A model generated the notes under the pieces. It was not told the origin of the DNA, made no database searches, and worked only from the letters and a program-made list of their open reading frames with translations. From Paracoccus sp. MKU1 (GTDB taxonomy: Bacteria > Pseudomonadota > Alphaproteobacteria > Rhodobacterales > Rhodobacteraceae), in NCBI RefSeq assembly GCF_001447385.1, contig NZ_LLWQ01000125.1:60-64059 (forward strand): DNA of 64,000 nucleotides. Direction: 5' to 3'. Position 1 is the stretch's first letter. Every line of letters starts with the position of its first letter. The translations under genes were made by a program, and so were the position numbers. Positions 42,375 to 54,095 of this stretch are shown in pieces.

Positions 42375-42918
42375 GCCGATCCTGTCGCTTCTGGGCGGCG
42401 TGATGATCCTGGCCGCGGCCGGCCAGGCGGTGATGCTGATGGACGGGCTGTCGCGGCTGTCTGCACATGCCGAACCCTCCGAGCTGATGGCCGGCTGCAC
42501 CGACGTTCCCGAGGCCGTGGCCCTGGCCGAGACGCTGCGCGAGCGTGCCCTGCGCATCGACCGCTACATGCAGGATATCGACCGCCGCAAGGCCGAGCTC
42601 GCCTTTGCGGAAAAGCAGCTTACCGGGCGGCTTGTCGAGCTGCGCAAGCTCAAGCGGCAGATCGCCCAGGGCAATCAAGGCCAGAGCCAGGCGCAGAACG
42701 AGGATATCGCCCGCCTGATCGCGGTTTATGACCAGATGAAGCCGGAACAGGCGGCCATGGTCCTGTCGAATCTGCCTCCCGATTTCGCCGCGCAGATCCT
42801 GGCCCGGGTCCAGCCGGAAACCGGCGCACGCATCATGGCTTCGGTCGAGCCCGGCCATGCGGCGGTCCTGACCTCATATATGGGCGCCATCAGGGCAGCC
42901 AGGAAGCAGGTAGAATAA
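42367..42918 (+). CDS. motE: MotE-family flagellar protein
   Basis: The 183-residue protein has a signal/anchor (residues 5-24), a long coiled coil (ETLRERALRIDRYMQDIDRRKAELAFAEKQLTGRLVELRKLKRQI) and a C-terminal MgtE-N-like domain: IARLIAVYDQMKPEQAAMVLSNLPPDFAAQILARVQPETGARIMASV. MotE proteins help MotC or stator function in alphaproteobacteria. It overlaps its upstream neighbour by 8 bp and motA by one base (TAATG), fixing it as a motility gene. Confidence 0.8.
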   Translation: MRKPILSLLGGVMILAAAGQAVMLMDGLSRLSAHAEPSELMAGCTDVPEAVALAETLRERALRIDRYMQDIDRRKAELAFAEKQLTGRLVELRKLKRQIAQGNQGQSQAQNEDIARLIAVYDQMKPEQAAMVLSNLPPDFAAQILARVQPETGARIMASVEPGHAAVLTSYMGAIRAARKQVE

Positions 42919-43364
42919 TGTTCGGCATGATCGGCATCGTCGTGACCTTCGGGATGGTCTTCGGCGGCTACATCCTGGCAGGCGGAAAGCTGGGGGTGAT
43001 CCTGCATTCGCTGCCCTTCGAGCTGATGATGATCGGCGGGGCGGCGATCGGTTCGTTCCTGCTCTCGAATGAGACGGCAGTCATCAAGCAGGCGCTGGCC
43101 GGCATCGGTCGCTCGCTCAAGGGGCCGCGCTGGCACGAATCCGACGTGCAGGACGTGCTTTGCCTGCTGTTTCAACTGCTGCGGATCGCCCGCGCCAGCC
43201 CGGTCGAGCTGGAGGAGCATATCGAGAATCCCGAATCCTCGCCGATTTTCCAGGCTTACCCGCGGATACTGGCCGACGAGCATGTCGTGAACCTGATTGC
43301 CGATACGCTGCGCTCGGCGAGCCTGAACTACGATGATCCCTATCAGGTGGCAGATTTTGCATGA
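42918..43364 (+). pseudogene. motA: motA, 5' part, interrupted by the integrated element
   Basis: Codons 1-140 and the start of codon 141 encode the first half of the stator protein MotA: TM1 (residues 2-22), TM2 (about 34-52) and most of the cytoplasmic torque domain, with PRILADEHVVNLIADTLRSASLNYDDPYQV. The sequence reads straight into the integrated element at 43339 and stops after four foreign codons at 43364. The missing half (TM3, TM4 and the proton-channel region) is at 53650-54095. The truncated product cannot form a working stator, so this strain should have paralysed or unmotored flagella unless another motA exists elsewhere. Confidence 0.95.
43339..43348 (+). repeat. attL core: 10-bp direct repeat
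   Basis: CCTATCAGGT at 43339-43348 is repeated exactly at 53650-53659. The flanking bases differ on both sides. Removing one copy plus the intervening DNA restores the motA frame (codon phase 421 and 55 from the two start points are both 1 mod 3). Confidence 0.93.
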
Positions 43365-43424
43365 TTTTCACGATTATTCATACGGTTAATGGATTGTGTC
43401 CCGGCCTCTGGGGTGGCGTGTCCC
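43353..43424 (+). repeat. Candidate integrase arm-type sites, left end
   Basis: GATTTTGC (43353-43360), TGATTTTCA (43362-43370) and two GTGTCCC copies (43396-43402 and 43418-43424) lie just inside attL. The same three words recur beside attR at 53584-53623. Short repeated words flanking the core are typical of tyrosine-integrase arm sites. Confidence 0.45.
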
Positions 43425-43428
43425 ATTT

Positions 43429-44436
43429 TCACACCTCCCCCATAACCAGGCGGACGATTTGTTCACGGTCGGCGGCGCGGGTGTATCGTTCCACTTCTTT
43501 CAGCGTCAGATGCCCAGCCATCGCGGCAATCTGATGGACGGTCTTGCCGTTTTCGGCCCAGTAGACGCAGAAGGCTTTCCGCAGGCCGTGCAGTCTCGCT
43601 TTCATTCCCGCCGCCACCGCTGCATCCTCGAAACGCTGTCCAAGGCTCTGCGGTTGGTATGGCTTGCGCCACTTCGACAGGATGAACGTTGGCGAAATGT
43701 CCGGCGTCCGGGCGATGACAGCCCGCAGTTCCGGGGTGATGGGCACATAGCTGGGCACGCCGGTTTTTACCCGGTTGAAGATCAGCACGTTGCCCTTGAT
43801 GTTGTGCCGGCCGATCACGGCCAGGTCGGCCCGCGCCGCGCCGGTATATAGGCCGAGGTCGAATATCAGCCGCTCAACCGTCCCAACCTCCCATCGCTTG
43901 ATGAACGCCGCGATATCGTCCGCGTCCGCAGTCGGAAGCTCATTCGGCACGGGCCGGTCGATCTCTATGCCAACCAGAGGGTTGCGGGCGATGAAACCGA
44001 GGCGTTTCACATGCTCGAACACCGGCCGAAGCGCCTTGAAGTCATTGACAGCCCCATGCCCGCCCTTGGCGTAAAGCGCGTTCTCGATATCGCGTGGAGT
44101 GATGGCAGAGAGCGGGCGATTGCCCTGGGCGCGCACATAACGCTTGAGGATCGCTTGCCGGGCTTTCCGGGTGCCTTCACTGTATTCGTTCAGCCACTTC
44201 CAGTTGCCGGATGTGTAAAGATCAACGGCCCAAGCGAATGTCCCGCTCTTGGGCGTGGAAGTGTCTGGCGGGCGATGTTCCCATCGAGCATGTTCGGCGC
44301 AGTAGGCGGCGAACACGCGCGGATCGGTAGGGTGTAGGCCATGCACCCCAAGCGAGATTTCTTTGTCGCCCCGGCGATAAGTGTGGAACCAGCGCCCCCG
44401 GCGCAGTTTCGAGCGGAGATAGGGCACGGTTTTCAT
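43429..44436 (-). CDS. int: Tyrosine-type site-specific integrase
   Basis: The 335-residue recombinase has a SAM-like core-binding region (about 65-160, SGNWKWLNEYSEGTRKARQAILKRYV) and a catalytic domain with the full R-K-H-R-H-Y set: Arg in GAARADLAVI (near 200), HGLRKAF (near 283), GH in AGHLTLKEV (near 306) and the nucleophilic Tyr in RYTRAAD (near 316). It is placed 80 bp inside attL, pointing toward it. It should carry out integration at CCTATCAGGT in motA and, with a directionality factor, excision. Its start overlaps the stop of a 63-codon gene (ATGA). Confidence 0.93.
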   Translation of the reverse strand: MKTVPYLRSKLRRGRWFHTYRRGDKEISLGVHGLHPTDPRVFAAYCAEHARWEHRPPDTSTPKSGTFAWAVDLYTSGNWKWLNEYSEGTRKARQAILKRYVRAQGNRPLSAITPRDIENALYAKGGHGAVNDFKALRPVFEHVKRLGFIARNPLVGIEIDRPVPNELPTADADDIAAFIKRWEVGTVERLIFDLGLYTGAARADLAVIGRHNIKGNVLIFNRVKTGVPSYVPITPELRAVIARTPDISPTFILSKWRKPYQPQSLGQRFEDAAVAAGMKARLHGLRKAFCVYWAENGKTVHQIAAMAGHLTLKEVERYTRAADREQIVRLVMGEV

Positions 44437-44624
44437 GCGCCCTCCGCAGAGAACGGCTTGTTGTCCCAGTTGCTAACATGCTTGCGAGCTTCGGGATATT
44501 CGAAGGTGACGCCCTCCGGCCCCACCCGCGCGATTCGAGCGCCGGGATGAAGCGAAGCAACGACCTTATGCGCCTCCTGGATCTGGCGCTCGGTTGGCAT
44601 GGAAGGGGCCGAGGGGCGGGACAT
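44433..44624 (-). CDS. Small protein upstream of the integrase, possible excisionase
   Basis: The 63-residue protein (MPTERQIQEAHKVVASLHPG...RVGPEGVTFEYPE) overlaps the integrase start by an ATGA and has GAGGAGGG upstream. It has a basic N-terminal half and a short beta pattern near RIARVGPEGVTFEYP. Directionality factors often sit next to int, but no MerR- or AlpA-like helix-turn-helix is clear. Function is unknown. Confidence 0.55.
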   Translation of the reverse strand: MSRPSAPSMPTERQIQEAHKVVASLHPGARIARVGPEGVTFEYPEARKHVSNWDNKPFSAEGA

Positions 44625-44626
44625 CG

Positions 44627-44899
44627 CTATCCCTCCTCGCCAGTTGCCGGCTTGTCGCGCCAGACGCCACGCTTGGCCTCACGCTGCAACGCATCCACGC
44701 CGGCATAGGCTCGCACCACGCAGGCGTTCAGGATTTCCAGCACCGTCGCCACCTCATTGGTAATGCGCTCGGCATTGTTCCCGTCCGCGTCCATGAGGGC
44801 ACAATGGGCAGCCGAGAGCAGGTCCAGCATGCGATCAAGGATCGCCGGGGCTTCGTCCGCCGGATCATCCTTGCAGAGCAGATCAGCAAAATCCCTCAT
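44627..44899 (-). CDS. Hypothetical protein of the element, 90 residues
   Basis: The acidic 90-residue helical protein (DFADLLCKDDPADEAPAILDRMLDLLSAAHCALMDADG...) has no recognisable motif. It lies between two other small genes with 2-bp and ATGA-type junctions, so it belongs to the same leftward early operon as int. It could be a regulator or helper-interaction protein; this is a guess from position. Confidence 0.6.
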   Translation of the reverse strand: MRDFADLLCKDDPADEAPAILDRMLDLLSAAHCALMDADGNNAERITNEVATVLEILNACVVRAYAGVDALQREAKRGVWRDKPATGEEG

Positions 44900-45147
44900 G
44901 CCGCCACCTCGAACCGCTGGGGCGTATCGAGGCCATGCGCGATGGCGCTGGTGATCGAGGAAAGCGCCGTGGCGATCTCGATGCTGGTTTCCTGAAATTC
45001 CACGTCATCCGCCAGCGCGTTCAGCGCATCGGCCAGCGCCTGCGCCTTCACCGCGAAGGAATGCAGGCGGCCGAGATGGGCGTACAGAGCGGGCGACATG
45101 GTGCTGCCGCTCCCCTTGACTTCGTTGATGGTTTGGCCCATTTTCAT
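44896..45147 (-). CDS. Hypothetical protein of the element, 83 residues
   Basis: The 83-residue protein (MKMGQTINEVKGSGSTMSPAL...SIEIATALSSITSAIAHG) is mostly helical with heptad-like Leu/Ala spacing. A TTG at 45153 and ATG at 45147 are both possible; AGGA lies 8 bp before 45147, so 45147 is preferred. It overlaps the next gene (ATGA). Confidence 0.55.
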   Translation of the reverse strand: MKMGQTINEVKGSGSTMSPALYAHLGRLHSFAVKAQALADALNALADDVEFQETSIEIATALSSITSAIAHGLDTPQRFEVAA

Positions 45148-45171
45148 GGTCAAGATCCTTTTCTCACAGGT

Positions 45172-45387
45172 TTAGGATTGCTTGAGACCGTCAGGGTGGC
45201 CGCCCTGGCGGTCTTGCTCGTTTCCGGCATCCCAGCCGATGGCCTTCCGCAGGTGAAAAACAATCTCTGCGTTCATCGACCGTTCATTCTGGGACGCCAG
45301 CACCTTGATCCGGTCCCGCATCCCGTCCGGAAGACGAATGATGAACCGATCAAGCTGGCCGCTAGGGTAGTCTTCTCGTTTCTTCAA
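45172..45387 (-). CDS. Arc-type ribbon-helix-helix regulator, leftward
   Basis: The 71-residue protein has the Arc-family strand and helices: QLDRFIIRLPDGMRDRIKVLASQNERSMNAEIVFHLRKAIG. It would bind DNA as dimers of dimers. Its partner across the divergent promoter region carries the same RLPDGMRDRIK...SMNAEIV block, so the two are paralogues. It heads the leftward early genes and probably regulates them. Confidence 0.82.
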   Translation of the reverse strand: MKKREDYPSGQLDRFIIRLPDGMRDRIKVLASQNERSMNAEIVFHLRKAIGWDAGNEQDRQGGHPDGLKQS

Positions 45388-45397
45388 AACCGACTCC

Positions 45398-45470
45398 TAT
45401 CCGTTGGGTATGCAGGGACGCTACCCGTTGGATAGGTCTTGCGTCAATCTCAAAATACATCCAATGGGTA
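45398..45470. promoter_or_regulatory. Three operator-like sites between the divergent RHH genes
   Basis: TATCCGTTGGGTA (45398-45410), TACCCGTTGGATA (45422-45434) and CATCCAATGGGTA (45458-45470) share the pattern YAYCC-N3-GGRTA, each a small imperfect palindrome. Starts are 24 and 36 bp apart. The first is 10 bp from the leftward regulator start and the third is 3 bp from the rightward one, a lysogeny-switch-like layout. Confidence 0.65.
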
Positions 45471-45473
45471 TGA

Positions 45474-45902
45474 ATGGCTGAAGAATCGACCCGTGCTTGG
45501 AAAGATCAGTATATGCTCCGCCTTCCGGACGGGATGCGGGACCGGATCAAGGCTGTTGCCGAGGCGAACAACCGCAGCATGAACGCCGAGATTGTCGCAA
45601 CGCTTGAGGAAAAATATCCCGCACCGAAGCCGGAAAGCCGCCTGATATCGCGGCTACATCACCTTATCGACATATTCGATGACACTGTGATGAGTGACAA
45701 ACTGTCGAATGAACGGCGCGAGCATATGCTTTCGCTGTTCAAGGATTCGATCGTGGATGTCATTGACCGCATGACGGAAGACGAATTAGCGCGCGTCCGG
45801 GCAGAGACGTCCTTTCCTGGCGAGCTTGACCAATTCGAGGACTGGCCTCCGCAACGCTGGCGCTCTGGCGGAACCGGCGATGCCATGGGCGGGCGAAGCT
45901 AG
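45474..45902 (+). CDS. Arc-type ribbon-helix-helix regulator, rightward
   Basis: The 142-residue protein has an Arc-family domain at residues 10-45 (QYMLRLPDGMRDRIKAVAEANNRSMNAEIVATLEEKYP) and an acidic helical extension (about 55-120). It is the only rightward gene of the element. Its stop TAG and that of the convergent zinc-finger gene share the palindrome CTAG at 45899-45902. It is likely the repressor or counter-repressor opposite the leftward RHH. Confidence 0.8.
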   Translation: MAEESTRAWKDQYMLRLPDGMRDRIKAVAEANNRSMNAEIVATLEEKYPAPKPESRLISRLHHLIDIFDDTVMSDKLSNERREHMLSLFKDSIVDVIDRMTEDELARVRAETSFPGELDQFEDWPPQRWRSGGTGDAMGGRS

Positions 45903-46429
45903 CCCTTCCTGCGCCTTCGCAGCTCATCCCGACAGGCCCGCGAACAGGTCACTTGCTCGATCCGGTGCGGCTTGAACACCGCCTGGCAGACCGGGCAGGT
46001 CTTGGGGTGCCGCTTGCGCCGGCTGGCCGCATAGCAGGGATGGGCACAGAATTTCCCGAAGCCTCGGAAGGTCTTGCCGCAATGCTGACAGGTCCGCCGC
46101 GTCTTCTGCATGTCTGCCTGCGCACGGCTCTGGCAAGGCTTGCTGCAATAGATCACGTCGCCGCGCGCCTCGGCCGGGATCGGGCCGCTGCACCACAGGC
46201 ATGTGCGACCCTGCCGCGCCGCAATGCGTTCGGCCCGTGCCTGGGCGGTTTGCGCGGCCTGACGACAGGTCTTGCTGCAATACATGCGGTTCGCGGATGA
46301 ACCTTCCGGCAACGGCCCGCCGCAATATTCACACTCGGCCGTCAGTCCGAATTGACCGCCATATGCACCGCCTGATCCTCCGACGCCTGCCGCATCCTCG
46401 TCATCCAGTTCGCATGGCTGGTGTTGCAT
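45899..46429 (-). CDS. Zinc-finger array protein of unknown function
   Basis: The C-terminal 130 residues hold four Cys4 knuckles in series: CEYCGGPLPEGSSANRMYCSKTC, CLWCSGPIPAEARGDVIYCSKPC, CQHCGKTFRGFGKFCAHPC and CPVCQAVFKPHRIEQVTCSRAC. Each has CxxC at the first pair and CxxxC at the second. The start is uncertain; ATG 46429 is in frame but overlaps the upstream gene by 88 bp, and a shorter form from near 46345 would begin at the first knuckle. Nucleic-acid or protein binding is plausible. The stop is shared with the convergent regulator. Confidence 0.65.
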   Translation of the reverse strand: MQHQPCELDDEDAAGVGGSGGAYGGQFGLTAECEYCGGPLPEGSSANRMYCSKTCRQAAQTAQARAERIAARQGRTCLWCSGPIPAEARGDVIYCSKPCQSRAQADMQKTRRTCQHCGKTFRGFGKFCAHPCYAASRRKRHPKTCPVCQAVFKPHRIEQVTCSRACRDELRRRRKG

Positions 46430-46848
46430 AGCCGGCTGCAAAACTTGTAGTGCCCCTCGGGCAAGGGCTTGTGGCAGCGAACGCAGCGCGTCCGCTCGAT
46501 CAGGGTTCCCGCTTCGATAGTCCATTCCGGCTGTCCTTCATACCAGTCGGGCCGCTCGGCCCCCACGCTGTTGAACACCTCGGCCATCAGGTCGCGCGCC
46601 ATCAGGTCGGCCGAGGTCCAGCCCCAGCCTTGCAGGCAGAAATCGGCGCGCAGCCCCGCCCGCAGCGGCCCCTCAAGGCCGAAGATGGATGCCGTCTCGC
46701 CCGCCTCGAAAGCCAGGCGCACCAGCGCGGCCAGATCCTTGACCATGGCGTGAAACCGGCCGGCGCCGACGCGGCCGCGCAGGGCATCGCGTTCTCGGTT
46801 CCTTTCCCGGCGCAGCCGCCTTTTCATCTCGGGGGACATGACAAGCAT
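46342..46848 (-). CDS. Zinc-knuckle protein adjacent to the head genes
   Basis: The 168-residue protein has a very basic N-terminus (KRRLRRERNRERDALRGRVGAGRF), a central WEGQPEW-like region and one Cys4 knuckle, CVRCHKPLPEGHYKFCSRLCN, near the C-terminus. That knuckle is the same type as the four in the next gene, suggesting that the two were once one protein or are a recent duplication. The start overlaps the head-closure gene by one base. Confidence 0.65.
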   Translation of the reverse strand: MLVMSPEMKRRLRRERNRERDALRGRVGAGRFHAMVKDLAALVRLAFEAGETASIFGLEGPLRAGLRADFCLQGWGWTSADLMARDLMAEVFNSVGAERPDWYEGQPEWTIEAGTLIERTRCVRCHKPLPEGHYKFCSRLCNTSHANWMTRMRQASEDQAVHMAVNSD

Positions 46849-47180
46849 CAGCGCGCCTCCGCCAGCATCTCAAGAAACGCGCGGTCTTGGCTTTCTCTCG
46901 GGTTTTCCTTGATCGCGTAGGTTCGCCCGTCGATTCTGGCTTTCCATTCGCTGGTGATGAGGCGGGTGTTCTCGCTGGCCCGAACCGTGATGATCGCCGG
47001 GTTCTTCGCTTCAATCCGGGCATGCATGACTTCCTCCCCGCCGCGCAACGGCAGGACATGCGCCCAGAGCGTGAATTGCGGATCATACCCTTGGATAATC
47101 CTCCCGTTCGCATCCACTTCCTTGCGCGGTTTCAGGAACTCGGCCCGGTTCGTCAGGCTATATGCGCCGTTCCTGCCCAT
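46848..47180 (-). CDS. Phage head closure (head-tail joining) protein
   Basis: The 110-residue protein matches the SPP1 gp16/HK97 head-closure style: TNRAEFLKPRKEVDANGRIIQGYDPQFTLWAHVLPLRGGEEVMHARIEAKNPAIITVRAS and DGRTYAIKENPRESQDRAFLEM. It plugs the portal and makes the interface for a tail. ATG 47180 overlaps the portal stop by one base; a TTG at 47192 would extend it. Keeping this gene while lacking tail genes fits a satellite using a helper's tails. Confidence 0.75.
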   Translation of the reverse strand: MGRNGAYSLTNRAEFLKPRKEVDANGRIIQGYDPQFTLWAHVLPLRGGEEVMHARIEAKNPAIITVRASENTRLITSEWKARIDGRTYAIKENPRESQDRAFLEMLAEAR

Positions 47181-48241
47181 CAGTCTGCCCAATCGATGAA
47201 TTGCAGCGCATCCTTGACGGTGGCCGGGTCAAGCCCCGCCTCTTTCGCCTGCGCCATGGCCTGAAGCATCGCCGACAGTGCCCGCGCCTTGCCGCCGTGG
47301 TCATAAGCCTGCATCGGCCGCACCACGTCGATGGCGACGGGCGCGCCCAGCTTTTCGGTCGCTTCCTCGGCCATCAGGTTGACGATGGGTTGCAGCACCA
47401 GCTGCGCCAGGTGGCGCTGCGCCTCGCGCACCAGCGGGCCGGTGGTGGCCGGGTTGGTCAGGCCGGGCAGGATGCCGAATACGTTGTAAATCTCGCCCTT
47501 GGCCTCGGTCAGAAGCTTGTCGGCCAGCGTCTTGTCGAGCTGAGGCGAAAGCTGATCAGGCGACTGGCCGATGTTCGGGTTCATGCCGGCGGCCGTCGCC
47601 TGGGCGGTGCCCTCGATGACCAAGGACGCACCCCGGTTGCCTCGGAAGCTGCGGCGCATCAGGTCCATGTCTTCGGCCGAGCCCTCGGGAACCGGGATGA
47701 TCTGTGAACCGATGGGCGCATCGCGGAACACGTCGCGCAGCGCCATGGTGATTTCGTCCAGCAGGGACGCCGACAGCTTGGCGCGGGCCAGCGGTGCCGA
47801 TCCGGCCCATGGGGTGACGGCATCGCAGCCGATGCGGAAATGCAGCACCTCGGGCGCCAGCACGGTTTCCGACCGCCCGCCGCCGATCTCGGGCAGGCCG
47901 AGGCGATAGGCGCGCGGCTGGCCGTAGCGGGTGGACAAGGCCCAATCGGTGGCCGGGATCAGCCGGTCGCGGATCAGGAACAGGCATTCCCCCCGCAAGG
48001 CCAGTGCGCGGGCGCAGATCGCCATGCTGCGCCGGTCCAGCAGATCAGTGCCGGTCACGTCCGCCAGCGACAGCCCGCTTTCCCAGAGGCTGACCGAGGC
48101 CTGCACGGCCGAGGTCAGTTCGGCCAGGCCGGAGCCGCCGGCAATCCAGGCCTCGCGCGCCGCCATCAGCGCGGCGGTATAGCCCGGCTGCACGGCGCGG
48201 GTTTCGACCGGCTTGCGGCGGAAAAAATCCATCAGCCCCAT
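47180..48241 (-). CDS. Phage portal protein
   Basis: The 353-residue protein shows the HK97-type portal order: MGLMDFFRRKP start, ALALRGECLFLIRD near residue 78, SETVLAPEVLHFR, KLLTEAKGEIYNVFGILPGLT near 250, and LVLQPIVNLMAEEATEKLG near 290. It is the dodecameric DNA gate of the capsid. It is 1 bp from the protease and coupled to head closure. Confidence 0.82.
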   Translation of the reverse strand: MGLMDFFRRKPVETRAVQPGYTAALMAAREAWIAGGSGLAELTSAVQASVSLWESGLSLADVTGTDLLDRRSMAICARALALRGECLFLIRDRLIPATDWALSTRYGQPRAYRLGLPEIGGGRSETVLAPEVLHFRIGCDAVTPWAGSAPLARAKLSASLLDEITMALRDVFRDAPIGSQIIPVPEGSAEDMDLMRRSFRGNRGASLVIEGTAQATAAGMNPNIGQSPDQLSPQLDKTLADKLLTEAKGEIYNVFGILPGLTNPATTGPLVREAQRHLAQLVLQPIVNLMAEEATEKLGAPVAIDVVRPMQAYDHGGKARALSAMLQAMAQAKEAGLDPATVKDALQFIDWAD

Positions 48242-48242
48242 G

Positions 48243-48794
48243 TCAGAGCCTCCAACGGTTCAGGTGATGCGTGACGATGCGTTCCGCGTCATCGCCCACG
48301 GGCTGCCATTCCCGCGCCTCGATCTGGGCTTGCGAATAGGCCGGCCGGGTGACGGCCGAGACCTCGAACAGGTCCGCCGCCGTGATGGTGCGCAGCGTCC
48401 CGGCCGCGCGCCGCTCGATCCGTTCGCCGCCGCGCTGGACGCGGAAACCGGGCGACAGGCCACGGATCAGGCCCGAGGCATGAGCGGCAAGGAAGTCCCG
48501 CGCCCAGCTGGTCTGGCCGTCAATCGTGGCCTCGATCTCCAATGCGGCATCGGTGTCTCGCAGCTGCAAGGTGCCGGCCGCGCGCGATGCCAGCGGGCGG
48601 TTGAAGTCATGGCCGGCCAGCAGGTGGATATCCTCGCCCCGCTCGATCCGGTCTGCGAAGGCGCGGGCGGCGATGACCTCATACCGCCCGGCTGCCAGTT
48701 CGGTTTCCGCGCCATAAGGGAACGTCGCCCGAAGGCGGGTTGCCCCGCCCTCGCTGCGCAGTTCCAGCGCCCCGAGCGACGCCCCCCACAGCAT
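48243..48794 (-). CDS. HK97-family prohead protease
   Basis: The 183-residue serine protease has the His in LLAGHDFNRPLAS (near residue 61), the Ser in RGLSPGFRV (near 115) and the conserved LFEVSAVTRPAYSQAQI tail, all typical of U35/HK97 prohead proteases. It would trim the scaffold region of the capsid protein made just upstream. Confidence 0.85.
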   Translation of the reverse strand: MLWGASLGALELRSEGGATRLRATFPYGAETELAAGRYEVIAARAFADRIERGEDIHLLAGHDFNRPLASRAAGTLQLRDTDAALEIEATIDGQTSWARDFLAAHASGLIRGLSPGFRVQRGGERIERRAAGTLRTITAADLFEVSAVTRPAYSQAQIEAREWQPVGDDAERIVTHHLNRWRL

Positions 48795-50029
48795 CAGGGT
48801 TCCCCGATGCCGGTCAGGATGCGGGTCTGCATCCCACGCGGCACGGTGAAATCGGCCGTGACCAGTGCCGTCAGCACCAGCTGGCCCGATTGCGCCTTGG
48901 TGTAGGGATCGCGGATCAGGTCCACGCCGCCATAGATGCCGAGATAGCCCGGCGCGATGCCCTGCACGGTCGCGGTCAGGATCGCGGTCTCAAGGGGGAT
49001 CACATTGCTGATCGCCGGGATGGCAATGTGCTTGGTCAGGCGGTCCCATTCCGAAACGGCGGTGCCGGTGATCAGCGCATCATCCAGCTCGGCCCAGATC
49101 GCCGGGCCGAAACCCAGATTGACTTGGGCAGCCGAGGTGATCGCGTTGGCCTGCATGAAGGCCACCACCTGCGCCCGGAATGCCGCCCAGGTCGCAGCCG
49201 CGCCAACGGCGGTCGAGGCAATGCCATAGGTCGCCGCGCCGGGGATCATGCCCAGAGGCTGGCCGGCCGCGCCGGAACCGTTCACCACCACGCGGTCAAG
49301 CTCGGTGCCGATCACCGCGTTCAGGTCGCGGCGGATGGCCGATTCCAGCCCTTCGCCAGCCTGTTTCAGCGCCTTGCGGCTGATGACCATCTGCGCCCCG
49401 CCGGTCTGGTCGGGGTTCAGGCTGCGTTCCGAGGTCTGGTATTCCGAGGCCGCGCCGACATTGCCCAGCTCGGTGGTCTGCCAGCCGAACACCGCGCCGG
49501 CGGTCGCAACCGGGAATTCCAGCTCGCCCGAGGTGATGTTGATCGACTGGACGCCGAGGCGCGAAGCCACCGAAGCCGGGAACAGCCGGTCGATTACCGG
49601 GCGGATGGTTTTCGGGTTGATCTGGTCGGCCGCGACGGTTTCGCCAGCGCGGGTTTCCAGAGCCGCCAGCGGGACCGGGACGCCCTGATAGCCGCCCTTG
49701 CTGCGCAGTTCGTCCACGACTTCCTTGGTCGCGCCCGACAGCGCCCGCCCTTCGTCGATGGCAAGCGCAACTTGGCGCAGTTCGAAGCGGCCGACCAGTT
49801 CGGCATATTCCCGGTCCGACCGGGTTTCCAGATCGGCCCCGGCCTCGCGGCGCTCGGTATCTTCCGCGATCAGGGCGGCACGATACCGGGTTTCGTTGGC
49901 GCGATATTCCGCGTCCAGCGTCTCCATGGAGCGGGTTTCGTCCTCGGTCGGGCTGTCCTTGCCCACCAGACCCGCCAGAGCCTGCCGGATTTCCGACTGG
50001 CGACGGGCGATTTTGACACTATCCAGCAT
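48794..50029 (-). CDS. HK97-fold major capsid protein
   Basis: The 411-residue protein starts with a helical delta/scaffold domain (about 1-110, with ETLDAEYRANETRYRAALIAEDTERREA) and then the HK97 capsid body: ELEFPVATAGAVFGWQTTELG, MVISRKALKQAGEGLESAIRRDLNAVIGTELDRVVVNGSGAAGQPLGM, and a C-terminal GVDLIRDPYTKAQSGQLVLTALVTADFTVPRG. A GAGG ribosome site favours ATG 50029; ATG 50041 overlaps the HNH stop and is also possible. It overlaps the protease by one base. Confidence 0.88.
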   Translation of the reverse strand: MLDSVKIARRQSEIRQALAGLVGKDSPTEDETRSMETLDAEYRANETRYRAALIAEDTERREAGADLETRSDREYAELVGRFELRQVALAIDEGRALSGATKEVVDELRSKGGYQGVPVPLAALETRAGETVAADQINPKTIRPVIDRLFPASVASRLGVQSINITSGELEFPVATAGAVFGWQTTELGNVGAASEYQTSERSLNPDQTGGAQMVISRKALKQAGEGLESAIRRDLNAVIGTELDRVVVNGSGAAGQPLGMIPGAATYGIASTAVGAAATWAAFRAQVVAFMQANAITSAAQVNLGFGPAIWAELDDALITGTAVSEWDRLTKHIAIPAISNVIPLETAILTATVQGIAPGYLGIYGGVDLIRDPYTKAQSGQLVLTALVTADFTVPRGMQTRILTGIGEP

Positions 50030-50037
50030 GTGATACC

Positions 50038-50376
50038 TCATGTTGCCGGGTTTGGGTTCGTCGCCAGATCGGCAACGGCTTGCGCCCAGGCATCGCGCTC
50101 GGGCGACCGGATCGGCGCGGGGTGGCCGCATTCGATCCGGGTTTTCTTGGTGTGGCAGGAGCTGCACCGCGTGGCGCAGTTGGCCGGGTCGAAGGCCAGT
50201 TCGGGATTGCTGCGCACCGGCTTGATGTGGTCGATTTCCAGCCGGCCGCGCTTGGTGCCGCAATCGACGCAGGCCCATCCGTCGCGTTCCAGCACGATCT
50301 GGCGCAGCACCTGCCAGCGTTTGGTTTTCAGGACGGGCCGGGAATGGCGCCGCCATTGGTCGCGCTTCATGCCCAT
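50038..50376 (-). CDS. HNH endonuclease
   Basis: The 112-residue nuclease has the HNH core with two CxxC zinc clamps: WACVDCGTKRGRLEIDHIKPVRSNPELAFDPANCATRCSSCHTKKT. Phage HNH proteins next to terminase help DNA cleavage during packaging in cos-type systems such as HK97. GAGGG upstream supports ATG 50376, inside the last codons of terL. Placement between terL and the capsid gene is unusual. Confidence 0.85.
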   Translation of the reverse strand: MGMKRDQWRRHSRPVLKTKRWQVLRQIVLERDGWACVDCGTKRGRLEIDHIKPVRSNPELAFDPANCATRCSSCHTKKTRIECGHPAPIRSPERDAWAQAVADLATNPNPAT

Positions 50377-52034
50377 GCCGCCCTCGCTTTCCGGGTCGGT
50401 GCGGCCTGCATCCGCGCGCCCTGGGCAACCGCCAGCACCGAAGCCGCTGCCGCGTCGATGCGGCCGAGGGCGCGGCCCTTCGCGAGCTTGGCGTTGCCGG
50501 CCGGATCGATCAGGGTCACGGCATCCGCGAAGGCGAAGCGCAGCAGCAGCGACGGCACGACCTTCACGTCGCCGTCGAACAGCGCCCGGCGGAACCGCTC
50601 GATATCCTCGGCCCCGTCCTTCCAGCCGAAGCCGCGCCAGATGAACGGGACGCGGGCGAGGCCGGCGCCGTTCATGGCCTCGGCAAATTCGGCATGGCGG
50701 AAACGGTCGCCGACGATGCAGGCGGGCTGGATACCGTCCAGCTGTCGCACGATCTCGGCCAGCCACGGGCCGGGCGGAACCGTGTTCTCGCCCATGACCG
50801 ACAATTCGCCGCGCTCGTGCATTTCGACATAGCGATGGGCGACGGCATCGGCCGCGCCGCGATCCGCCAGCGACGGGAAGGCCGGGAAGGTGCCGAGGGC
50901 TTCCAGCCGTCCGGTTTCCGGCCAGTAGAACGCCGCCGCCGACATGGAGCGCGAGCCGCCCAGATCCACGCCGAGAATACAGATGCCTTCGCGGGGCGGC
51001 AGATCCTCGGGCGCGACCTCGGCCGAAAGCCATTCGTCCACCGTGACCAGCACCGACCGATTCTCGATCGACACGCGCTCGTTGCGGTTCAGGTTGCGGA
51101 AGCTGGACAGGGCCGCGCCGCCGCGGGCGATGGCGGTCTTTGCCGCCGACAGCAGCCATTCCGGGGTCGAGCCGATGCCCTCGGCCGCGCCGGGGTTCGC
51201 CAGCAGCAGGCTTTCCAGATCGTCGGCCGGCAGGCCGAAGGGCGGGCGATGCTCCTGGACGTAAGAACCGGGCGGCGGTTCATCCAGCCAGCGGGAAAAG
51301 GTGTTGGTGTCGTCGGGGGCCGAGGTCGAGATGATCAGCGCCCGGCCGTCGCGTTTGCCGAGGCCCGAGAGAATGGCGTTTTCGAGGTTGTCGCCCTTCT
51401 CGCGTTCCCAGGCGGCGCGTTCGTCCATGATCGCCAGCGTCGGGGCACCGCCGAGAATGGACTTGCCGTCAGCGGCGATGCAGCGCGCCAGCCCGCCGCC
51501 ATTGCCGCCGAATTCGATCTCCAGCTTGGAGCCGCGCCGGATGGTGAACTGTGCCTGATCCGATTCCGGCAGGCCGTTGATGTAGCCCAGCACGAAATTG
51601 AAGGCGATGCGCGCCTGGTCACGGTTGCGGGCCGCGAAGATGATCTCGCGGTTCGGCTGCGGATCGTCCTGAAGCGCGCCGACCAGCTCGGCCAATGCGA
51701 GGCCCGCCGAAAGCGCGGTCTTGGCATTGCCGCGCCCGATGGACAGGACGCCGACCGTCACCCCCTTGGAAAAGGACCCTTTCACGAATTTTTTCTGGAA
51801 ATTCGCCAGTTTGAGCGGTTTTCCGGCCTTTTTGCCCTCGGGAACGCGCAACAGGCCCAAAAACTGGATCGCCCGCATCGACGGCGATTTTCCCCGGATT
51901 TTTTCCAAAAGTGAGAGCGGAACACTCCGCCGCCGGTCCCCCGGCAAAACCGAAGTCTGGGCATTGGGACCATGCCCGAACAGGTCGCGCGCCGCGCCTT
52001 CCGTTCCCGTGATCATCTCTTTGCCTTCTCGCAT
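50367..52034 (-). CDS. Phage terminase large subunit
   Basis: The 555-residue packaging motor has an ATPase half with a Walker A-like GRGNAKT (near residue 100) and Walker B TLAIMDERAAW (near 203), and a RNase H-like nuclease half beginning ICILGVDLGGSRSMSAAAFYW (catalytic Asp) with VGDRFRHAEFAEA later. It cuts and pumps element DNA into heads. It is leftward, followed by HNH with overlapping codons. Confidence 0.87.
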   Translation of the reverse strand: MREGKEMITGTEGAARDLFGHGPNAQTSVLPGDRRRSVPLSLLEKIRGKSPSMRAIQFLGLLRVPEGKKAGKPLKLANFQKKFVKGSFSKGVTVGVLSIGRGNAKTALSAGLALAELVGALQDDPQPNREIIFAARNRDQARIAFNFVLGYINGLPESDQAQFTIRRGSKLEIEFGGNGGGLARCIAADGKSILGGAPTLAIMDERAAWEREKGDNLENAILSGLGKRDGRALIISTSAPDDTNTFSRWLDEPPPGSYVQEHRPPFGLPADDLESLLLANPGAAEGIGSTPEWLLSAAKTAIARGGAALSSFRNLNRNERVSIENRSVLVTVDEWLSAEVAPEDLPPREGICILGVDLGGSRSMSAAAFYWPETGRLEALGTFPAFPSLADRGAADAVAHRYVEMHERGELSVMGENTVPPGPWLAEIVRQLDGIQPACIVGDRFRHAEFAEAMNGAGLARVPFIWRGFGWKDGAEDIERFRRALFDGDVKVVPSLLLRFAFADAVTLIDPAGNAKLAKGRALGRIDAAAASVLAVAQGARMQAAPTRKARAAWA

Positions 52035-52445
52035 CTAAGCTCTTGTTCCTGTTCTTCTCTTGTCCCTGCCCATCGGTTCAGACCCCGAGCGACGGTCAGG
52101 AAGCGGGTTAAAGGCCGGGGTTCAGAACCCAGCGTTCCCGCCCTGACCGCCGCGATCTTGACCTGCCCATTCGGACGAGCCCGTCGCTTAGGTCAGACCT
52201 GCCTTTCCCTCGGCCCGGTCCGCTCTCCCATGTTCGCCGCCGTGAGGGTGGCAGCGGGTTCCTGGGGCTTGGAGAGACCGCCGAAGCGGGATAGCTGCCC
52301 CTGCGGATTTCCACCGCACCGTGCGACTGTCGCCGCGCCGGTTTGCGCCTGAACCGTTCCGTCTGCTGCGCTTTAAGCCGCCGCGCATCGCTAACCCGTG
52401 AAAGCTCCACGGCGGCCGAGGCCCGCGCCATGCGGGCCGGTATGT
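52035..52445. other. 411-bp region between terL and the upstream gene, possible packaging site
   Basis: No convincing gene. A leftward frame from ATG 52431 to 52108 exists (about 107 basic residues) but lacks a ribosome site and its second half looks non-coding. The DNA contains GGGTTCAGAACCC (52118-52130, perfect palindrome), nested inside CGGTCAGG (52093-52100) and CCTGACCG (52142-52149), plus a second GGTTCAGA at 52075-52082. A symmetric structure next to terminase is where a cos or pac site would be expected. Confidence 0.4.
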
Positions 52446-52685
52446 TCAATCCTCGATCAGGTCAGGTTCATCCTCCCTGGCGACGGGTGGCAGCTCTGCC
52501 ACCAGGCGGCGCATGACGGCCAACTGCCGATGGCTGGGCATCCAGCCCGGACGCTTGCGCGCCCTCTGGATCGACAGGGCAAACCCCCGCGCCCATTCGT
52601 CGGTGGCGTCCGCAATAACGCGGCGCCACCGGAACAGCAGCTGGTCAATGTCGGGATCGCCCGTGTATCCTCGCTCCGCGCTCAT
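52446..52685 (-). CDS. Small protein upstream of terL, possible small terminase
   Basis: The 79-residue protein (MSAERGYTGDPDIDQLLFRWRRVIADATDEWARGFALSI...RPGWMPSHRQLAVMRRLVAEL) is basic and helical. Its W-x-P-x-x-R/K-Q-x-x-x-M-R-R-L-V pattern recurs in small phage proteins near primases and terminases. Position upstream of terL suggests TerS, but it is short for that role and the call is tentative. It overlaps the connector gene by an ATGA. Confidence 0.5.
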   Translation of the reverse strand: MSAERGYTGDPDIDQLLFRWRRVIADATDEWARGFALSIQRARKRPGWMPSHRQLAVMRRLVAELPPVAREDEPDLIED

Positions 52686-53215
52686 GCCCGCACCCCGCGA
52701 TAGCGGCCGAGGATCCGGGCGAAGTGGGGCGACAGGCTGACGGCCTGCTTATCGACCGCGCCCCTGGTGTCGTAATAGACCGACACCTGGTCCAGCATCG
52801 CCTTGCGCAGATCGCCGGGAATGTCGCCGGCTGCATCACCGAACCCCGCGACATACTCGATGACGATTCCCCCCCGCGGCCTGGACCCGCTCAATCGAAG
52901 CGCGGGGCGCCGGCCGGTCATCACCGCATAGTCGTCGAACGCTTCCCCGTCCGCGGTGACGGTCACGGTTGACCAGTCCAGGAGCGGCGCTATCGGCAGG
53001 TTGAAGCTCATGGCGCGCGGCCAGCACGGCAAGGTGACGCGGATTGTCTGATTGATCAGCGCGATCTGCCCGTAATCCTCGGCTTCGCGCGCCACCGCAT
53101 CAATCGCATTGACGAAATCGGCGTTGTCATCATCGAACAGGACGCGCGTATGGTTCTTGGCCTCTGTCAGGTCCAGCACCGGCTCGGGCGACCTCGAAAT
53201 CCGCTCGACGTTCAT
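52682..53215 (-). CDS. Phage head-tail connector (gp6-like) protein
   Basis: The 177-residue protein has the gp6/phiE125 gp8-like start DLTEAKNHTRVLFDDDNADFVNAIDAVAREAEDYGQIALINQTIRVTL and then a beta region with ALRLSGSRPRGGIVIEYVAGFGDAAGDIPGDLRKAMLDQVSVYYDTRG. This family forms the ring below the portal. It begins near 53215 and overlaps the neighbour at its 5' side. Its place upstream of terL, away from the other connector, is odd. Confidence 0.78.
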   Translation of the reverse strand: MNVERISRSPEPVLDLTEAKNHTRVLFDDDNADFVNAIDAVAREAEDYGQIALINQTIRVTLPCWPRAMSFNLPIAPLLDWSTVTVTADGEAFDDYAVMTGRRPALRLSGSRPRGGIVIEYVAGFGDAAGDIPGDLRKAMLDQVSVYYDTRGAVDKQAVSLSPHFARILGRYRGVRA

Positions 53216-53577
53216 GCCGCCTCCTCCCCGCTGACATGCGACAGGAAGGCCACCTGATCGGCCGGGGGCAGTGCCTCGTAGCAGGCCAGCGCATAGGCCT
53301 TGCGCTCGGCCGTGCTGGCCCAGCTGGCCCATTCCCGCGCCTCGGTCATAAGGCCGTAAGGGTTCGGGATCGGATGGCCGGGCGACAGATGGGCGTGAAT
53401 GATTTCGAGGAAACGCGCCGCGTCAGCGCCGCAGTTCAGCGCGGCATTGATCAGGTGACGGGCCGCGATCTGGCGCCGGGCATTTTCCTCGATCCGGTCG
53501 AGGAAGATCACCGCGTAGTCATGCGCCGGCCGGAACGTCGAGTGTCCCGAACGCTCTTCTAAGCTATTGACCTGCAA
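53212..53577 (-). CDS. Hypothetical protein, first gene of the leftward head operon
   Basis: The roughly 121-residue protein (starting at a TTG, no clear ribosome site) contains HDYAVIFLDRIEENARRQIAARHLINAALNCGADAARFLEIIHAHLSPGHPIPNPYG. I do not recognise it. It is closest to attR and reads away from it, so its promoter would lie in the attR arm region. The start may be internal. Confidence 0.55.
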   Translation of the reverse strand: MQVNSLEERSGHSTFRPAHDYAVIFLDRIEENARRQIAARHLINAALNCGADAARFLEIIHAHLSPGHPIPNPYGLMTEAREWASWASTAERKAYALACYEALPPADQVAFLSHVSGEEAA

Positions 53578-53583
53578 GGGGCT

Positions 53584-53623
53584 GATTTTGCCCGATGTGT
53601 CCCTTTCGCTTCCTTGATTTTCA
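53584..53623 (+). repeat. Candidate integrase arm-type sites, right end
   Basis: GATTTTGC (53584-53591), GTGTCCC (53597-53603) and TGATTTTCA (53615-53623) repeat words found just inside attL, here just inside attR in the same orientation. Confidence 0.45.
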
Positions 53624-53649
53624 AGGAAACTTTCGAGACTGTCGCAGTT

Positions 53650-53659
53650 CCTATCAGGT
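53650..53659 (+). repeat. attR core: 10-bp direct repeat
   Basis: CCTATCAGGT, identical to 43339-43348. It marks the right junction, after which motA resumes at codon 141. Confidence 0.93.
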
Positions 53660-54095
53660 CGAGGAGATGCTTTCGCAGCGCATCGGCCTGATGAACGAGG
53701 AGGCCATGCATGCGCCGCATGCGTTGCAGAACATGGCGGACGCCTTGCCCGCCTTGGGAATCGTCGCCGCGGTCCTGGGCGTGATCAAGACCATGAGTTC
53801 GATCGATCAGCCGCCCGAGGTGCTGGGCAAGATGATCGGCGGCGCCCTGGTCGGGACGTTCCTGGGCGTGTTCCTGGCCTATGCGATCGTCGCCCCCTTC
53901 GCCCAGCGGCTTGGGGCGGTGACGAAGCAGGACCAGGCCTTTTACGACGTGATCAAATCCGTCCTGGTGGCCGGCCTGCATCAGCATGCGACCAATCTTT
54001 GCGTCGAGGTGGGCCGGCAATCCGCGCCCGATCATGTCCGCCCCTCGTTCGGCGACCTCGAGAACGCGCTGCGCGAGTTGAAGAGGGCGTCGTGA
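53650..54095 (+). pseudogene. motA: motA, 3' part, separated from its start by the element
   Basis: From CCTATCAGGT the frame continues as PYQVEEMLSQRIGLMNEEAMHAPHALQNMADALPALGIVAAVLGVIKTM (TM3), then GKMIGGALVGTFLGVFLAYAIVAPF (TM4), and stops at 54095. Joined to 42918-43338 it encodes a normal 288-residue MotA. In the integrated state an ATG at 53595, inside the element, opens the same frame and would add 18 foreign residues ahead of PYQV, but there is no good ribosome site there. The next gene overlaps at GTGA (54092). Confidence 0.95.

Follow-up and report, generated by a model that had tools for sequence, protein, structure and literature searches.

The 64,000-nt stretch of contig NZ_LLWQ01000125.1 from Paracoccus sp. 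MKU1 analysed here (the window; all coordinates are window positions) contains a flagellar stator gene, motA, that is cut in two by an integrated element carrying an integrase together with head and packaging genes (Table 1). The gene starts at 42918, and its residues 1-140 finish at 43337. Just beyond lies the 10-bp sequence CCTATCAGGT, which recurs exactly at a spacing of 10,311 bp, where the rest of motA resumes. When the two flanks were joined at this repeat, a motA of 288 codons (288 amino acids, aa) without internal stops was obtained, with DDPYQVEEML at the junction. This junction is read through without a break in all 14 top-ranking intact motA genes (taken from 30 loci that the motA search gave), 10 of which carry the identical 10-mer; the chance of an exact 10-mer at one fixed offset is, by arithmetic, about 1 in a million (4^-10). 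An earlier note on this DNA had proposed that an integrated element cuts motA and that precise excision would restore the frame to a 288-residue MotA with this junction, and the repeat, the rebuilt open reading frame (ORF) and the intact relatives all agree with it. The resumption at 53650 with the shared repeat was likewise correct, and the end of residue 140 had been placed one base off, at 43338. The same note had named a second motA as a finding that would speak against it; a profile search of the MKU1 contigs gave no second MotA_N match anywhere in the genome, and the split gene is the only recognisable copy.

The edges of the element are where the repeats put them, because divergence from Paracoccus denitrificans DSM 413, which carries a related element at the same base of motA, jumps at both edges: differences amount to 2/80 and 2/80 inside the element edges, against 9/80 and 10/80 outside. 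Since the MKU1 assembly is a draft of 242 contigs, an artefact that joined unrelated DNA might be suspected; however, identical junctions in the assembly of another species (DSM 413) make this hardly conceivable. The core together with either flank has only two copies in the MKU1 genome, namely the left and right attachment sites (attL and attR). Orthologous motA genes in Paracoccus, a comparison that the earlier note had suggested, were surveyed in 125 genomes of the genus, five of which gave no match. The gene is uninterrupted in 118 of the remaining 120 (two of these matches being partial) and split in MKU1 and DSM 413. A second motA-like gene was seen in two Paracoccus genomes (50% identity in G060, full-length in G098). 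In both carriers, the element supplies an open start codon for the 3' motA piece (53595-54095 in MKU1).

Table 1 Features of the interrupted motA locus and of the inserted element (E, E-value; pLDDT, predicted local distance difference test score)
Feature	Position	Strand	Evidence or remark
5' part of motA	42918..43364	+	Residues 1-140, then shared codons; ends VADFA inside the element; PF20560 MotA_N, E 8.2e-33
attL core CCTATCAGGT	43339..43348	+	Exact repeat of 53650-53659; same as the uninterrupted sequence of relatives
Two GTGTCCC repeats, left end	43396..43424	+	Predicted integrase arm sites
Tyrosine integrase, 335 aa	43429..44436	-	PF00589, E 2.1e-10; phrog_1, E 3.6e-31
63-aa integrase-companion protein	44433..44624	-	Candidate excision cofactor; 50 homologues; model helix + hairpin, pLDDT 75
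Two small ORFs, 90 and 85 aa	44627..45153	-	No assigned function; no Pfam or PHROG match
Arc-type repressor-like protein, 71 aa	45172..45387	-	PF03869, E 3.4e-11
Divergent Arc-type regulator, 142 aa	45474..45902	+	PF03869, E 5.9e-14
Treble-clef/zinc-finger protein	45899..46381	-	PF09889, E 3.6e-6; phrog_1271, E 2.3e-13; start codon uncertain, frame open to 46525
168-aa protein	46342..46848	-	No assigned function; 340 homologues
Head closure protein (Hc1-like)	46848..47192	-	PF05521, E 1.2e-17; phrog_25
Portal protein	47180..48241	-	PF04860, E 1.2e-6, below family cut-off; no PHROG match
Prohead protease (S78)	48243..48794	-	PF04586, E 1.5e-23
HK97-type major capsid protein	48794..50032	-	PF05065, E 1.6e-11; phrog_617
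HNH endonuclease	50038..50370	-	PF01844, E 1.9e-9
Large terminase	50367..52034	-	phrog_9, E 4.4e-51; PF03354
79-aa ORF	52446..52685	-	Possible small terminase; no family match
Head-tail adaptor	52682..53218	-	phrog_442, E 5e-21
121-aa ORF	53212..53577	-	No assigned function; no family match; 22 homologues, sole named one hypothetical
Two more GTGTCCC repeats, right end	53542..53603	+	Predicted integrase arm sites
3' part of motA, 166 aa	53595..54095	+	Open from an ATG within the element; PF01618 (MotA_ExbB), E 3.1e-14
attR core CCTATCAGGT	53650..53659	+	Exact repeat of the attL core

Between the repeats, 17 genes were called, all of them open frames, with some start codons chosen among alternatives. 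Pfam and PHROG recognised no tail, lysis, replication (primase/helicase) or AlpA gene among these 17. Because head and packaging genes are present without a recognisable tail, lysis or replication gene, the element reads as a capsid-forming phage satellite and not as a prophage, a candidate that was rejected on this ground; the integration described in the earlier note stands, the element being better described as satellite-like than as a prophage. Compared with capsid-forming phage-inducible chromosomal islands (cf-PICIs), it has its own capsid, protease and portal, head-tail connectors (PF05521/phrog_25 and phrog_442), a large terminase with HNH, and, as far as recognisable genes go (6 of the 17 are unmatched), no tail or lysis genes; for the small terminase, the 79-aa and 121-aa ORFs are both without a family match. 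The integrase and direct-repeat attachment sites of a PICI are also present. AlpA and a primase/replicase are PICI core genes (PMC11773190; the papers cited by PMC number are represented here by excerpts). In the element, two Arc-type regulators stand in place of an AlpA-family regulator and no primase or replicase was found; since both were sought and not found, we use the term cf-PICI-like and refrain from classing the element as a PICI. Overall, the insert is likely a capsid-forming satellite of this cf-PICI-like kind, probably put into the 10-bp core by its own integrase. Its presence divides the sole recognisable motA and would be expected to abolish torque, and its precise excision would rebuild the gene.

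The gene products resemble known phage proteins only distantly. Phage matches of the capsid have 26-28% identity (8 records) and those of the large terminase, among the matches listed (12 of 60), about 28-29%, being HK022-like (HK542, HK633, HK022 and others); the connector proteins match distant phages only and single out no helper phage. Among the homologues listed for the 168-aa protein (120 of 340), the named ones are hypothetical save one "nucleic-acid-binding Zn ribbon protein". The two divergent Arc genes form 49-nt arms (45303-45351 and 45504-45552) that are 86% complementary, and look like a duplicated regulator facing its own copy.

To describe the wider distribution of the packaging cargo, the best 80 of 100 viral contigs found by the capsid (56-100% identity; longest contig 20.9 kb) were taken as its relatives. 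Protease, HNH and terminase were each present in 79 of the 80, the portal in 72 (at 45-100% identity), the adaptor in 26 and the head closure protein in 5. Within the genus, 32 of the 125 Paracoccus genomes hold a capsid relative at E<=1e-20, which points to capsid-forming satellites in Rhodobacterales. From 14 relative contigs, 68 ORFs were scanned (66 of the 120 without a match to a window protein, plus two others). Pfam identified integrases, ATPases, connectors, one D5-type helicase domain, one AlpA and one HK97-gp10-like protein, a family labelled by Pfam as a putative tail component, and PHROG assigned primase/helicase families to at least 6 ORFs (25 of 57 families listed). Three further loci of the genus were opened: one lies beside tRNA-Glu with its own integrase, a second holds its own integrase, and the third (G120:C4) is a relative with two long ORFs replacing the terminase region, which resemble insertion-sequence genes. 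The contig IMGVR_UViG_2508501030_000001 (probably P. pantotrophus) carries 5.9 kb of the window cargo at 96% and stops about 144 bp before the core, so that here the packaging cargo occurs with a different attachment end. Viral contigs searched for attR or circular-form (attP) junctions yielded only the attR copies of MKU1 and DSM 413; another junction search of viral contigs yielded two more, neither with motA.

The ends of the element and its integrase bear on the choice of site. The heptamer GTGTCCC has six copies in the window, four of which, all on the + strand, are found no more than about 110 bp from an end of the element, and four copies stand at matching places in the DSM 413 element. 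Among integrase relatives of at least 58% identity, to which this comparison was limited, a tRNA gene (Arg, Glu or Lys) lies 86-98 bp away in 13 of 13 loci scanned (11 distinct), and all 11 loci checked for it (9 distinct) have a GGGACAC pair in the interval from integrase to tRNA. When 394 genomes of the family were sampled, an integrase match at E<=1e-70 was obtained in only two besides MKU1, both by tRNA-Arg. Because all 11 distinct integrase-relative loci sit beside tRNA genes, the targeting of motA looks like a change of site. Nine relative loci outside motA were compared (two of them from one genome), and the 63-aa protein accompanies the integrase in 8 of these; the pair seems to serve other elements too. 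As to whether the 63-aa protein is an excisionase, the helix-plus-hairpin model decides nothing at its pLDDT. At five loci (L018, L020, L055, L056 and L060), the integrase and its 63-aa partner lie at tRNA genes without a packaging-gene match in the stretch searched.

The DSM 413 element proved to be a mosaic when compared with that of MKU1. Amino acid identity is 97% for the integrase and 94-99% for the packaging genes; it is 66-75% for the regulators and the zinc-finger protein, 63% for the 79-aa ORF and 52% for the adaptor, and for head closure and either small ORF the DSM 413 copy has no counterpart. Synonymous divergence (dS) between the two elements is 0.26 for the integrase, 0.10-0.21 for the packaging genes and 0.68-1.2 for the swapped modules. 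The host genes of the two strains gave a dS of 0.14-0.50 with a median of 0.28 (17 of 18 genes; fliH was without a match in the stretches used), a spread too wide for dating the insertion by dS, which was tried and gave no resolution. The mosaic divergence and the 96% cargo match in IMGVR_UViG_2508501030_000001 indicate that modules move between species.

Judged by its codons, neither split motA shows any sign of decay. The pairwise ratio of nonsynonymous to synonymous divergence (dN/dS) is 0.039 for the split pair, 0.055-0.071 for split versus intact genes and, between intact genes, 0.058 and 0.080 in the two pairs computed. Private codon changes (synonymous:amino-acid) number 8:1 in MKU1 and 6:0 in DSM 413, and 0:0, 2:0, 4:3 and 9:1 in four intact genomes. 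The insertions would therefore be either recent or reversed often enough for selection to hold motA.

The state of the other flagellar genes determines what excision could achieve. In MKU1, flgL (named by its place between flgK and flgI; its product has Flagellin_N and Flagellin_C domains) is split between contigs C3 and C191, and at either break the gene gives way to unrelated DNA, bordered by a duplicated 8-mer, GATGTTTC (C3:1-300 and C191:3134-3464). The MKU1 genome has no other Flagellin_N match save one flagellin. An insertion sequence with this 8-bp duplication at its ends interrupts flgL; it looks like an IS66-type element, and the break is a second lesion in MKU1, independent of that in motA. 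In DSM 413, flgL is open. Relatives of motB, flgI, flgK, flgE, fliG, flagellin, fliL and flhA are open in both genomes, as is fliF over the stretch compared, and fliP, fliN and flhB align as open frames between the two; fliM, fliI, the rod genes and, in DSM 413, fliH were left out of this comparison. A DSM 413 ORF with a stop, considered as a flagellar lesion, was in fact a glyceraldehyde-3-phosphate dehydrogenase gene whose start had been set too far upstream. In the flgE region of MKU1, the contig ends C191:1-569 and C98:4-572 overlap by 569 bp at 97.7%, which may reflect a partial duplication, a mixed culture or an assembly problem.

P. denitrificans is called non-motile in PMC5588039 and PMC13235738, the strain of the latter being PD1222 and the strain analysed here DSM 413. 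The excerpt of PMC5588039 describes the species as being without most flagellar genes, with which the DSM 413 contigs carrying open flagellar genes are at odds. From their gene content, both MKU1 and DSM 413 are predicted to be unable to swim. With flgL interrupted as well, loss of the element from motA would not by itself be expected to make MKU1 swim again. The earlier note had expected swimming to be abolished by the insert and regained on excision; the part concerning the motA frame is upheld, and regained swimming in MKU1 is weakened by the insertion sequence in flgL. The MKU1 insertion is probably an inactivation by a mobile element with the potential of reversal, and not a working on/off switch.

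Several observations weigh against the satellite reading and have to be set beside it. The MKU1 assembly contains no contig with the empty site (attB) or the circle (attP), a pattern covering all four junction forms having returned attL and attR only. AlpA and primase/helicase, both core genes of PICIs, were not found in the element, and the 6 of 17 called genes without a family match could include one for replication, the tail or a small terminase. The match of the portal does not reach the Pfam cut-off. The DSM 413 element lacks head closure, the gene most suggestive of an interface role, and few relatives have it; and MKU1 has the additional break in flgL. The presence of only recognisable head and packaging genes and the size of 10 kb would also suit a decaying prophage remnant, that is, a full phage without its former tail, lysis and replication genes that is now fixed. 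However, all 17 called genes are open and the boundaries are exact, and the capsid, portal, protease and terminase are still alike in the DSM 413 copy (dN 0.009-0.024) while other modules have been swapped. Moreover, numerous contigs of up to 20.9 kb share the packaging block, and the Pfam scan of the 68 further ORFs gave the HK97-gp10-like protein as the single tail-labelled match, so we regard such a remnant as improbable. The earlier note had itself named an inactivated, fixed remnant shared by relatives as an alternative: DSM 413 is indeed also split, but its motA halves and those of MKU1 are without excess amino-acid changes, which argues against it.

Two further explanations concern what the insertion does to the cell. 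In both strains both motA frames are open and the 3' piece starts inside the element, and the 148-aa and 166-aa pieces might both be made and assemble into a stator, with motility kept. The open frames are, however, explained by the earlier coding constraint on motA, and P. denitrificans is called non-motile (PMC5588039, PMC13235738); this idea is highly improbable. The other is an active-lysogeny switch, in which a signal makes the satellite excise and re-insert and the lineage goes back and forth between swimming and non-swimming, on the model of SpyCIM1 and mutL. It would accord with the frame-restoring site, the open integrase, the lack of motA decay in either species (8:1 and 6:0; dN/dS 0.039-0.071) and the open state of the other flagellar genes examined in DSM 413; furthermore, the integrase dS of 0.26, close to the host median of 0.28, allows one old insertion, which with an intact motA would need reversal. 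This switch is nevertheless unlikely, given the independent interruption of flgL in MKU1, the lack of an empty site or circle in its assembly and the description of P. denitrificans as non-motile (PMC5588039, PMC13235738), and because the two strains differ less in most packaging genes and at both element edges than in a typical host gene, a pattern in favour of recent arrivals on separate occasions. The switch put forward in the earlier note thus keeps a slim but real chance, chiefly in DSM 413.

That note knew of no such element in a stator gene; the relative at the same base in DSM 413 means that the MKU1 insertion is not unique. The open-licence literature, among the matches listed and judged by title and the start of the abstract, offered neither an element in motA acting as a switch nor a capsid-forming satellite from Paracoccus. 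In PMC6536676, a Paracoccus virome paper, a term search gave none of motA, flagell-, satellite and chromosomal island.

For the capsid-forming satellite that we favour, the following course can be proposed. The integrase would bind the CCTATCAGGT core and the GTGTCCC arms and direct site-specific integration into motA, its lineage having possibly moved from tRNA 3' ends to this gene, as the unrooted comparison suggests. Flagellar torque would be lost while the element is integrated. An incoming helper phage may induce excision and supply tails, lysis and replication, the element DNA being packaged in its own small heads, and the exchanged head-tail adaptor genes may suit different helpers. Taken as a whole, the scenario that a tail-less satellite retargeted its integrase from tRNA genes to motA, is the immediate cause of DSM 413 non-motility and restarts the motor upon helper-induced excision is conceivable but doubtful. 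If it is true, a satellite in motA holds swimming hostage. With the flagellar genes examined in DSM 413 otherwise open, the non-motility of P. denitrificans, a model of denitrification, may have a specific and possibly reversible cause, a motA cut by a mobile element, and the locus offers a natural case of an integrase lineage that apparently exchanged a tRNA end, where it does no harm, for a costly position in a coding sequence.

Active-lysogeny prophages such as phiSa3 are full phages. One mark of active lysogeny, a disrupted gene that precise excision would restore, is found at motA on the level of sequence. The MKU1 insertion is like that of phiSa3 in hlb, where integration inactivates the gene and producing variants re-arise (PMC6597384), and unlike it in being satellite-like and lying in a flagellar stator gene. 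The description of MulchRoom-type satellites of Streptomyces phages in the excerpt of PMC10690885, with an integrase and encapsidation genes but without replication genes, also fits the element, a likeness by description and not by sequence; unlike the element, those satellites use virulent helpers. With cf-PICIs, whose anatomy in the same source comprises an integrase, own capsid, protease, portal, connectors, HNH and large terminase without tail or lysis genes (PMC10690885), it shares this whole set and the lack of recognisable tail and lysis genes. It departs from them in that AlpA and primase were not found and a small terminase was not identified, in its length of 10.3 kb versus a 14-kb mean, and in its alphaproteobacterial host, which is outside the main groups named in the excerpt of PMC10803314. 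As an island that would restore a gene by excision, its closest analogue appears to be SpyCIM1 in mutL of Streptococcus pyogenes, likewise a site-specific island in a host gene restored by excision (PMC4689407), an event that is predicted here; SpyCIM1 blocks mutL transcription at the 5' end and cycles with growth, whereas the MKU1 element cuts the frame in the middle of motA.

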